Source of the DNA: Rhodanobacter sp.
GTDB taxonomy: Bacteria > Pseudomonadota > Gammaproteobacteria > Xanthomonadales > Rhodanobacteraceae
Length of the DNA stretch: 32,642 bases
Assembly: GCA_027450005.1 (NCBI GenBank)
Contig: DAIDKO010000129.1
Coordinates: 1 to 32,642 of the forward strand
Direction of reading: 5' to 3'
This document shows, one piece after another, positions 23,090 to 26,846 of this stretch. Each line of letters starts with the position of its first letter. Within the stretch, counting starts at the first letter, position 1. Made by a program: the position numbers and the translations under genes. The notes beneath the pieces were generated by a model. The model did no database searches and was not told the DNA's origin. It was given only the letters and a program-made list of their open reading frames with translations.

Positions 23090-23140
23090 CGGGCGGAGCG
23101 ATCAGGCGAACGGATCGTCCAGCGCGATGGTGTCGTCGCG
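23090..23140 (-). repeat. Orphan duplicate of the purA 3' end (direct repeat, left copy)
   Basis: 51 bases that match 26796-26846 at 50 positions and in the same orientation. The minus strand reads RDDTIALDDPFA and a TGA stop, then the bases that follow purA. The only difference changes Val to Ala. It is not attached to any adenylosuccinate synthetase gene, so it is a fragment. Confidence 0.88.
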
Positions 23141-23203
23141 ACCTGTGCAGGTCCGTACCATCAATCGGAGTGCGCAGCACAGCCGACGCCGGCCCCATAG
23201 CAT

Positions 23204-23950
23204 TCAGCGCCACCGAGCCGCCCTTGCCGCACGCTCCTGCCGCGCATCGAACACCTCGCCACGCAGGCGCGCATCGATTGCCGCCTGCACTGCAGGCGGC
23301 AGGTCGCTCGCGGCCTGGCGCAACTCGCCGCCTCGGGCCGGAGCCGACGGCTCCAGCACCGGCAGCTCCCAGCCCGTAGCCGTATGGCAGGCCAGACCGG
23401 CGCGCGATGGCGGCGTACGAATGGTGAAGCTGCGGCAGATGTTCCCCTCGGCGGTGCGGAAGCTGAGGCCAATCGCGACCGGTGCACGCGCATCCGGCTC
23501 GCTCGCCAATGCATGGTTCAGCGCATGATCGAGGACCCCGGCGGCATAGGATTCGCCGTTCCGCATGCGGACCATGTCGTCGCCGGCACGCCGCCACCAC
23601 AGGCCAGCCGCCAGCAGCGCCACCGAGGCGGCCAGTGCCGCACCAGGCATCAGCCAACGACGGGGTACGCGACGGCGGTTGAAGTTTGCAGCGCGTCCAC
23701 CCGCGTGCACCGTGAGCGGAACGGTCGATTCGCCCTGCGGCTGCAGCAGGGCGGAGAGGTGTGCGGGCACCGGCTCGTCCAGTACCGGATCGAACGCGGC
23801 ACGCAGTCGGGCATTCAGCGCCCGCATTCGCCGCACGCGGCTCGCCAGCACCTCGTCCCGCGCCAGCGCGGCATCGACGCGCGCGGCCTCCGTTGCGTCG
23901 AGCGCACCGTCCACGTAGGCCTGCAGGGTGTCGTCGTCGATCGGGTTCAT
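23204..23950 (-). CDS. Membrane anti-sigma factor partner of the ECF sigma factor
   Basis: 248 residues. The N-terminal ~70 residues are acidic and helical (DDDTLQAYVDGALDATEAARVDAAL), like the anti-sigma domain of FecR/RskA-type proteins but without the HxxxCxxC zinc motif. A single membrane helix lies at about 99-119 (WLMPGAALAASVALLAAGLWW), after a basic RRRVPRRW stop. The outer domain of about 125 residues contains two cysteines (GNICRSF and GLACHTA). Its start overlaps the sigma gene stop (ATGA), the usual layout for a sigma/anti-sigma pair. It would hold the sigma factor at the membrane until an envelope signal frees it. The domain assignment rests on context and topology. Confidence 0.86.
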   Translation of the reverse strand: MNPIDDDTLQAYVDGALDATEAARVDAALARDEVLASRVRRMRALNARLRAAFDPVLDEPVPAHLSALLQPQGESTVPLTVHAGGRAANFNRRRVPRRWLMPGAALAASVALLAAGLWWRRAGDDMVRMRNGESYAAGVLDHALNHALASEPDARAPVAIGLSFRTAEGNICRSFTIRTPPSRAGLACHTATGWELPVLEPSAPARGGELRQAASDLPPAVQAAIDARLRGEVFDARQERAARAARWR

Positions 23951-24438
23951 GCGTCGCTCCCAAGATGGGCCTGCAAGGTGGCGCGGGCACGGGACAATCG
24001 GCTGGTGACGGTTCCGACCGGCACCTCCAGCAATGCGGCAGCCTCGTCGTAGGACAGGCCTTCGACCAACACCAGCGCCACCACCTCGCGATGGTCCGGC
24101 GGCAGCGCCGCCAAGGCCTGCGCCAGCTCCAGTTGCTGCGCGGGCAGCGCCGCGCCACCATCGGCCACGGCCTCGCCGGCCTCCTCGGCTACGAACAGGT
24201 GCTGCGCCCGCCCGCGGGCGCGCAGCTCGTCGCGCCACGCGTTGCGCGCGATCGCGAACACCCACTTGTCCAGCGCGGCATCCGGCCGCCACTGCGCGGA
24301 CCGGGCAAGTGCGCGCTCCAGCACCACCTGCACCAGGTCGTCGGCATCGGCCGTCTGGCCGGCCAGCGCCCGCGCCAGGCGGCGCAGGCGGGGCAGCAGC
24401 GCAATCAATCCTTCACGCACGGCGTCGCTCGTATGCAC
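23947..24438 (-). CDS. ECF-subfamily RNA polymerase sigma factor
   Basis: 163 residues. Region 2 is seen at about residues 10-80 (RLARALAGQTADADDLVQVVLERAL, then LDKWVFAIARNAWRDELRAR), and region 4 at about 105-155 (ALPPDHREVVALVLVEGLSYDEAAALLEVPVGTVTSRLSRARATL), with the helix-turn-helix at YDEAAALLEVPVGTVTSRLSRA. No region 1 or 3, hence extracytoplasmic-function type. GTG at 24438 follows GGAAGG by six bases. It is divergent from the exported protease gene, with 122 bases between, and co-translated with the anti-sigma factor. Likely targets are itself and the divergent protease, but no matching -35/-10 pair could be assigned. Confidence 0.94.
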   Translation of the reverse strand: MHTSDAVREGLIALLPRLRRLARALAGQTADADDLVQVVLERALARSAQWRPDAALDKWVFAIARNAWRDELRARGRAQHLFVAEEAGEAVADGGAALPAQQLELAQALAALPPDHREVVALVLVEGLSYDEAAALLEVPVGTVTSRLSRARATLQAHLGSDA

Positions 24439-24560
24439 GCATCACCTTCCACTACGTCCGGGCGGGAGGATTCCTTCCCTCGCGCGCCGCGAGGCGTTTC
24501 GAGGGCGTGAAGGAAGCTCATGCTAGCATCCGGCTCCGCTGCCCCCGAGGGTGTCCGGCG

Positions 24561-25895: not shown

Positions 25896-26732
25896 ATGCG
25901 CAACACGACCCTCAGCAACAACACCCTCGGCATCACCCTGTGCGCCGGCTTGCTTGCCTTGGCTTCGATGACCAGCGCCCACGCCCAGGTGCTGGGCGGC
26001 ATTGCCGGCAGGATCGGCCAGCTCCCGGTCGCGGCCGGCCAGATCGGCGGCATGGTGCAAGGTGCGGGACACTTCGCCGCGCCCCCCGTCGACAGCGGCG
26101 CAGTGACGGAGCGCGCGCAGCGCCTGCACCAGCGCGCGGTATCGACCGTGAAGCAGGCGACGCAGGTCGCGGGCGAGGCGAATGGCCAGGCCAGCGCCAA
26201 CGGCAACGCGTCCGGCTCCGGCAGCCTTGATGGCTCTGCGATGGGCAGCGTCGTCGGCAACGCCGCGAACGCGGCCACCGACCGGGCGCGTTCGGCCGTC
26301 TCCGCGACCCGCCAGGACGCCGCGAACGCGGTGGGCCGCGCACGCAACGCCGCTGACGACGCCCGCATGAATGCAGGCAGCGCCGCCCAGGCTGCCGTCG
26401 GCAAGGCACGGCAGCTCGCTGCCAAGGACACGTCCACAGCCCGCTCGCTGGGCTCGCAAGTTGCAGGCAGCGCGAAGAATGGGGCCTCGTCCGGCACCCG
26501 CGGCGCAGGCAGCCCGTTGGGCGCGATCAGCAACGCCGCCAACGGAGGCTCGGCCGTCGATGTCTCGGGCTCGGGCAGCGGTACCGGCAGCGCGAGTGCC
26601 GGGTCCGGCGCCAGCGCGAACGGCTCGGCCGGCGGCCAGGGTCAGGCCGGCGCCAGCGGCTCGTTCGGCCATGGCGTATCCGCCTCGGCGCAGGCCGGCG
26701 GAAACGCGGACGCGAGCGCGCAAGGCCATTGA
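25896..26732 (+). CDS. Exported Ser/Gly/Ala-rich low-complexity protein
   Basis: 278 residues. A 30-residue signal peptide (LGITLCAGLLALASMTSAHA) is followed by QVLGGIAGRIGQLPVAAGQI. Residues 65-185 are rich in alanine with regular charged positions (AANAATDRARSAVSATRQD), fitting amphipathic helices. Residues 190-278 are almost only Gly, Ser, Ala and Asn (GSGSGTGSASAGSGASANGS), likely disordered or surface-exposed. There is no recognised domain. A strong GGAGG site precedes the ATG. The codon pattern keeps GC at third positions, which supports translation. Its place after the protease and the shared QVLG mature start suggest a substrate, partner or co-secreted product. It ends 15 bases before a strong terminator. 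Confidence 0.78.
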   Translation: MRNTTLSNNTLGITLCAGLLALASMTSAHAQVLGGIAGRIGQLPVAAGQIGGMVQGAGHFAAPPVDSGAVTERAQRLHQRAVSTVKQATQVAGEANGQASANGNASGSGSLDGSAMGSVVGNAANAATDRARSAVSATRQDAANAVGRARNAADDARMNAGSAAQAAVGKARQLAAKDTSTARSLGSQVAGSAKNGASSGTRGAGSPLGAISNAANGGSAVDVSGSGSGTGSASAGSGASANGSAGGQGQAGASGSFGHGVSASAQAGGNADASAQGH

Positions 26733-26747
26733 ATCCTCGCGCCACTG

Positions 26748-26781
26748 ACGAAGAAGGCCCCGCATGCGGGGCCTTCTTCGT
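26748..26781. terminator. Bidirectional rho-independent terminator between the low-complexity protein gene and purA
   Basis: A 16-base arm, ACGAAGAAGGCCCCGC (26748-26763), pairs fully with 26766-26781, the centre forming the loop. TTTG follows on the plus strand; on the minus strand there is little T. It ends the protease-side transcript and may also serve purA. Confidence 0.9.
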
Positions 26782-26795
26782 TTGCGCGGCTCAAC

Positions 26796-26846
26796 CGGGC
26801 GGAGCGATCAGGCGAACGGATCGTCCAGCACGATGGTGTCGTCGCG
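26796..26846 (-). repeat. Functional copy of the purA 3'-end direct repeat (right copy)
   Basis: 51 bases covering the last codons of purA ([12 protein letters not shown], stop 26808-26810) and the 12 bases after the stop. It matches 23090-23140 with a single difference. The two copies flank the 3.6-kb sigma/anti-sigma/protease module in direct orientation. Confidence 0.88.

Follow-up and report, generated by a model that had tools for sequence, protein, structure and literature searches.

A repeated purA 3' end in Rhodanobacter as a possible scar of additive, integrase-free recombination

Homology-facilitated illegitimate recombination (HFIR) with sequential displacement has been described for the effector-immunity arrays of the type VI secretion system (T6SS) in Vibrio cholerae (PMC5361080), and sequential displacement has also been described for the T6SS loci of Pseudomonas aeruginosa (PMC11751169). 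The former paper cites Rhs orphan 3' regions as a related case and, in the parts of both papers that treat the mechanism, it was likewise inferred from genome comparison. Two further kinds of locus are relevant, the minimal mobile element of Neisseria, which by definition is incorporated solely by homologous recombination (PMC3898611), and SGI1 at trmE, an island that depends on an integrase for its insertion at the 3' end of a gene (PMC8409611). Here we describe the region behind purA, the gene for adenylosuccinate synthetase, in a Rhodanobacter contig of 32,642 nucleotides (DAIDKO010000129.1; this whole stretch is referred to as the window). In the window the 3' end of purA is present twice, as a 51-base direct repeat on either side of a four-gene module. 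HFIR with sequential displacement is the closest published model for this arrangement, and a limited search of titles and the beginnings of abstracts, covering purA or gene ends as insertion sites and recombination in Rhodanobacter, returned nothing alike.

The reading that we favor, and in which we have about as much confidence as doubt, is that the repeat in the window is the scar of an additive, one-sided recombination event at the purA 3' end that involved no integrase. In an ancestor shared by the window species (genome G000; relatives also carry G numbers) and its sister metagenome-assembled genome (MAG) G011, DNA carrying a purA 3' end and a module for a low-complexity protein, an S8 protease, a sigma factor, and an anti-sigma factor would have recombined with the chromosome. 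One end would have been anchored by homology in purA, and the other would have been an illegitimate join within the purA tail of the recipient, as in HFIR. Such an event would keep purA intact with the incoming tail and push the recipient's old tail, its terminator, and msrBA 3.7 kb away, where the relic would have been decaying since. This account builds on the repeat itself, its presence in two species, the empty- and donor-type gene orders of relatives, a search that found no recombinase nearby, and recurrence at the same place in other genera. From these we infer the anchored and illegitimate ends, as well as an origin of the incoming DNA in another cell and not in a sister chromosome.

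The second purA end and its surroundings

A preliminary description, made from the sequence of the window, had pointed out the repeat and the four genes that it brackets, and both were confirmed. Sequence reading and a repeat search of the window gave 50 of 51 identical bases with a single mismatch, and Pfam matches identified a zf-HC2 anti-sigma factor, an extracytoplasmic function (ECF) sigma factor, and an S8 protease next to a low-complexity protein that has no Pfam match. The right copy is the true purA end, while the left copy lies 63 bp past the anti-sigma stop codon. A search for the 33-base core with up to 3 mismatches returned two sites in the draft genome to which the window belongs (2.9 Mb, 164 contigs, 87.7% complete), both of them the window copies; the possibility raised earlier, that the repeat occurs many times in the genome, is therefore set aside. 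The second purA tail had a local alignment score of 52, compared to a maximum of 20 in 20 shuffles. In G011 the second tail matches that genome's own purA end at 47 of 51 bases, which is more change than in the window, and because this independent MAG carries the same second copy in decayed form, we rejected an assembly artefact as unlikely. Of 16 genomes tested, namely G132 and the 15 of the genus, only the window genome and G011 gave a second tail; none was detected in the other 13 of the genus, and a 46-base match in G014 (score of 22 vs 15 for shuffles) was not counted. With 2 of 15 genus genomes carrying it, the orphan repeat is not a feature of all members of the family, which had been named as the finding that would speak against an insertion.

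The repeat extends past the coding sequence. The 12 bases after the stop codon are identical in the two window copies (12/12), agree at 10 of 12 positions in the G011 relic and, among the other 14 genus genomes, are found 3' of purA only in G011. This identity suggests either a conspecific donor or an in situ duplication. Past the left copy lies a hairpin stem without a T-run, the counterpart of which in G011 no longer forms a stem, and strong hairpins are present 3' of purA in G004, G008, and G009. The orphan hairpin of the preliminary description is therefore real, and we read it as a decayed former purA terminator.

Gene order in the genus places the repeat in context. The gene purA was found in all 15 genus genomes, and the module stands directly behind it in 8 of the 15. 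The order purA-module-msrBA is found in the window, G011, G013, G010, and G002, the order purA-module without msrBA in G005, G012, and G014, and the order purA-msrBA-module in G008 and G009. G004 has purA, 134 bp, and then msrB-msrA with no module, and G003 has pepN immediately behind purA. No module, msrBA, or pepN was seen in the post-purA stretches examined of G001, G006, and G007, and the module of G006 is on another contig. The gene msrB is found at other sites in G001, G003, G005, G012, and G014, and searches of G006 and G007 returned only distant msrB homologs. A search for the protease covered 197 genomes of the family, and in the neighboring genus the module lies 3.2 kb (G132), 5.1 kb (G208), and 9.4 kb (G113) from purA. 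The module is thus resident in the purA-pepN interval of both its own and the neighboring genus, and the four genes are not foreign. We rejected a recently mobile element for the window on account of this residence and of the decay of the relic in G011.

The junctions agree with the gene orders. The left copy runs on into the decayed terminator and an msrB leader that is common to the purA-msrB spacer of G008, G009, and G004. For approximately 1 kb, the DNA past the left copy corresponds to the DNA 65 to 1068 bases behind the purA stop codon in G008 (89% identity) and to that of G004 (87%) and G009 (86%), and the stretch that follows the intact purA has its counterpart next to purA in G013, G012, and G005. 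We read the left copy as the old purA-msrBA junction, which G004, G008, and G009 still have, so that the module was either newly inserted or brought back between purA and its former tail. The preliminary description had recognized a layout of DNA added at the purA 3' end with displacement of the old tail, and the gene orders of relatives support it. It had also predicted a strain with the empty arrangement; G004 has this order, although it is not the closest relative of the window.

Trees of purA with hflC, of pepN, and of the module each join the window with G011 and then with G013. The msrBA tree gives the same grouping plus G002 (83/94), and the purA-proximal msrBA copies group in a single clade (100/100), separate from the msrBA copies at other sites. 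In G002, msrBA groups with G013 and the window, while the module and pepN group with G014, which suggests that msrBA was exchanged between species in this genome. Along the locus, G000 and G011 are mostly 94-99% identical, with a drop to 86-90% in the middle of purA (about 27455-27900 of the window) that may reflect a local exchange inside purA in either of the two.

Displaced purA ends across the Rhodanobacteraceae

The survey comprised 139 of 233 family genomes; in 131 of the 139, the DNA downstream extended for 8 kb or more. The sample is non-random, the first 79 having been taken mostly for a purA tail close to that of the window and the other 60 from among the matches listed in a purA-placing search. 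With all 139 coding tails as queries (E <= 1e-5), extra purA 3' ends were found downstream in 9 of the 139 genomes, in 12 copies that are all direct: G000, G011, G017, G047, G113, and G194, and G057, G141, and G164 with two each. The same search of the minus strand gave one match only, an inverted one of 58 bases (81%) located 3337-3391 bases behind purA in G226. Six other 153-base purA segments returned only continuations of the long copies in G113 and G141. At the protein level, 7 of 139 genomes gave extra purA ends, and the short copies in G000 and G011 escaped detection. The weak candidates in G024, G197, G232, G034, and G042, among them 29-base matches in G197 and G034, were left out of the count.

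Other searches gave a similar picture. When each genome's own tail was aligned to its downstream DNA, 10 of 139 reached a score of at least 43, compared to a maximum of 22 for shuffles. Internal purA segments reached at most 27, except at two loci whose copies run further, and the reversed tail reached 47 in G215 (mostly 3' flank, 111-176 bases behind the stop codon) and no more than 29 elsewhere. A plain tail pattern occurs twice in G000, G011, and G017, the last of another genus, with any match in 83 of the 233 family genomes. Across the whole order, double copies were found only in G000 and G017, and the 52 of 398 genomes with any match all belong to the same family, among the matches listed.

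The starts of the 12 strict relics relative to the stop codon are -39 (twice), -85, -95, -105, -110, -116, -130, -235, -254, -354, and -369. This scatter implies that there is no fixed att core. Behind purA, the first open reading frame (ORF) falls into 64 clusters in the 139 genomes, an overestimate that reflects crude ORF calls. G057 has a further relic of purA that lies 6301-6384 bases past the stop codon; the DNA after it is 86% identical to the post-purA DUF302 stretch of G017, and this locus may be a two-step array.

Several relics are closer to the purA of another genome than to that of their host. The G113 relic is 93.4% identical to G211 purA and 90.6% to its own. The G141 relics are 94.6% identical to G113 purA vs 93.3% to their own and, for the second, 91.4% vs 90.5%. 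The G194 relic is 82.2% identical to G210 purA vs 77.6% to its own, with an alignment score of 176 to G078 vs 147 to its own. The DNA behind the G194 relic is 93% identical over 1.5 kb to the DNA directly behind purA in G078, and the stretch after its intact purA has 83% identity, over 0.8 kb, with the post-purA DNA of G181; G078 would thus represent the empty type and G181 the donor type. The G113 cargo is 90% identical to the post-purA DNA of G218. At the G113 junction, GGCTNGATC is common to cargo and purA, by eye and with G218 as the donor type, in what is a single case. An intact purA, a direct displaced tail, and native flank behind the relic are found together in the window and G011, in G113, and in G194. 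In G017, G047, and G057, and at the outer G141 relic, a native flank past the terminator could not be demonstrated. Windowed identities along the full purA genes were too mixed for placing crossovers.

The preliminary description had asked whether other cargo lies between purA tails elsewhere, and this was seen in other genera, in some cases with genes for phage defense or toxins. By Pfam and PADLOC, G047 carries a NERD/UvrD helicase, a PDC-M05A/B pair, and HipA; G057 carries an X-Tfe effector, a HipB-like protein, and HipA; G141 carries PDC-M05A/B, a relic, Fic, and the second relic; and G194 carries PDC-M05A/B. The X-Tfes are antibacterial effectors of a type IV secretion system (PMC6536674). 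A DUF302 protein was found in G017 by Pfam, and a Pfam scan of one ORF of the G113 cargo, which overlaps the relic, gave no match. The weak relic of G042 has an X-Tfe gene before it and HipA behind.

As had been reported for the window, there is no integrase inside the slot: no tyrosine or serine recombinase (PF00589/PF00239) was found there in the 10 genomes tested, several of which are on short contigs (window 32.6 kb, G011 20.9 kb). The shortest distance to a recombinase on the contig of the slot is about 39 kb, seen in G047. Transposases were looked for only within 20 Pfam-scanned proteins. As a control for the tails themselves, a score of at least 35 within 4 kb was found for purA tails in 7 of 135 genomes (G164, G113, G194, G017, G011, G000, and G141, with G000 and G011 counted as two and G164 included), for tails of neighboring ORFs in the same loci in 2 of 412, and for ORFs in 20 regions away from purA in 2 of 199. 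Fisher's test gave p = 0.025 for purA vs random ORFs and p = 0.0034 when the controls were pooled and G000 and G011 were given one count. In G186, the 3' end of a gene at 8466-10554 (trimmed, purA-oriented locus, minus strand), which we take to be gcvP-like, is duplicated in direct orientation approximately 1.3 kb on, with a score of 183. This tail, one of the 2 of 412 above, could be a comparable scar at a second housekeeping gene and is a first candidate for another anchor.

Origin of the repeat

A number of observations weigh against the arrival of new DNA from another cell by a process particular to purA. At the resolution of our trees, the module has no visible foreign history; because the trees of the module, msrBA, and the flanks agree on the clade of the window, no foreign donor is visible. 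The G047 relic is nearest to its own purA (84.4% vs 82.9% to the best other) and the first G057 relic is 100% identical to its own purA over 116 bp. The two relics of G164 resemble local tandem copies, have no cargo, and match their own and G179 purA equally, and the relic identities of G000, G011, and G017 come from stretches of 42-101 bases, too short to be decisive. Since the tails of other ORFs are also duplicated, the process is not exclusive to purA, which is moderately enriched. DprA was found in 9 of 10 genomes and not in the window's own draft and, because it is widespread in control genomes too, it says little on competence. Judged by relic similarity, incoming DNA from another genome would be supported for G113, G141, and G194 and not for G047, G057, and G164.

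A close rival for the window, plausible without being probable, is tandem duplication in situ with subsequent loss. Here, in an ancestor of the G008/G009 type, a segment reaching from the tail of purA as far as the anti-sigma gene would have been doubled, and loss of msrBA from the first unit and of the module from the second would leave module-tail-msrBA. G008 and G009 have exactly the ancestral order that this requires, G164 is evidence that purA ends do become copied locally in tandem, and the module, msrBA, and flank trees are congruent in the window's clade. The 12 post-stop bases common to both window copies also fit a distant donor less well. However, one duplication and two deletions are needed, no remnant of msrBA before the low-complexity gene or of the module behind msrA was seen in the spacers checked by eye, and the relics of G113, G141, and G194 that are nearer to other species are left unexplained. 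Regardless of which of the two applies, additive one-sided recombination and in situ duplication are both integrase-free events at the purA tail.

We consider two other explanations to have little going for them. It is improbable that msrBA is the newcomer, brought in when DNA of a purA-msrBA strain recombined via msrBA into a purA-module genome and carried a purA tail to the anti-sigma side. The separate clade of purA-proximal msrBA (100/100), the G002 msrBA, which belongs to a different clade from the module and pepN of that genome, and the same order without the tail in G013 would suit this course of events. Yet the window's msrBA clusters with those of G013 and G002 (83/94), just as its other genes group with G013, and the 12 common bases would require a conspecific donor. 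More improbable still is that a genomic island integrated site-specifically at the purA 3' end, with purA restored by the island's integrase and this integrase later lost. Integrase-dependent islands usually leave the target gene intact with its original 3' end displaced behind the cargo, which is the layout seen here. This explanation is opposed by the empty recombinase search, by relic starts that vary from -39 to -369, and by the residence of the module in the genus. Of the routes offered in the preliminary description, an element that lost its integrase fares poorly on the same three grounds, and arrival by homologous exchange through the purA tail fits best.

The survey suggests that the purA 3' end is a repeated landing place for new DNA in related bacteria. 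We also advance, tentatively and with more doubt than belief, a broader proposal, that the purA 3' end of the Rhodanobacteraceae is an integrase-free, self-renewing insertion locus for small conflict or defense cassettes that bear their own purA tail and terminator. Each landing would restore purA and push older cassettes outward, such that relic tails would punctuate a time-ordered array that is integron-like in function and driven by general recombination. The usual explanations for variable spots in bacterial chromosomes are integrases or a clean exchange on both sides, of which nothing remains to be seen. Displaced gene tails, in contrast, record joining points and their order in a form that can be read, and sometimes also likeness to another species over the host. 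The purA scars are thus a test case for small defense cassettes possibly spreading without mobile-element machinery, and duplicated direct gene tails offer a simple genome-wide search that could reveal further anchor genes.

Features of the window and comparison with known systems

The features are collected in Table 1. Just after their signal-like N-termini, the S8 protease and the low-complexity protein both contain AQVLG, by eye, as if the two were exported together.

Table 1. Features around the purA 3' end in the window.
Feature	Position	Strand	Basis or remark
msrA	21968..22480	-	Gene order in relatives; family search
msrB, likely purA neighbor before the event	22477..22923	-	Gene order in relatives; family search
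Former purA-msrB intergenic stretch with msrB leader	22924..23055	-	86-89% to post-purA DNA of G008, G004, G009 from leader onward
Orphan hairpin past left copy	23056..23074		Stem without T-run
Relic purA 3' end, displaced copy	23090..23140	-	Last 13 codons including stop, plus 12 nt of 3' flank; decayed ortholog in G011
Spacer of 63 bp, junction of anti-sigma gene and relic purA tail	23141..23203		Sequence
Anti-sigma factor (zf-HC2)	23204..23950	-	Pfam; NCBIfam anti-sigma model below its cutoff
ECF sigma factor	23947..24438	-	Pfam; TIGR02937 above cutoff
S8 (subtilisin-like) protease, apparently exported	24561..25790	+	PF00082; signal-like N-terminus by eye
Low-complexity protein, signal-like N-terminus	25896..26732	+	No family match
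Palindromic terminator common to low-complexity gene and purA	26748..26781		Inverted-repeat search
Functional purA 3' end, other repeat copy	26796..26846	-	Sequence and repeat search
purA, adenylosuccinate synthetase, intact	26808..28100	-	PF00709

Compared to integrase-dependent islands of the SGI1 type, the purA locus is alike in that the target gene is intact and the original 3' end is displaced behind the cargo. It differs in that no integrase was found, there is no fixed att length, the cargo is small and, in the window, the module is resident. Between the two conserved genes of the interval we met pepN adjacent to purA, msrBA only, the module only, or both. This variable whole-gene content between purA and, in several genomes, pepN, together with homologous recombination, resembles a minimal mobile element, whereas here additions leave displaced purA tails in the interval (9 of 139 genomes). 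With the T6SS arrays, the purA locus would share an anchored homologous end and a non-homologous end without an integrase, and an old 3' part that is kept and pushed downstream, with repeated rounds giving arrays. Unlike those arrays, the anchor at the purA locus is the gene of a housekeeping enzyme, the relics are short dead tails in place of effector and immunity genes, and the cargo is of mixed kinds and is not fused to the anchor.

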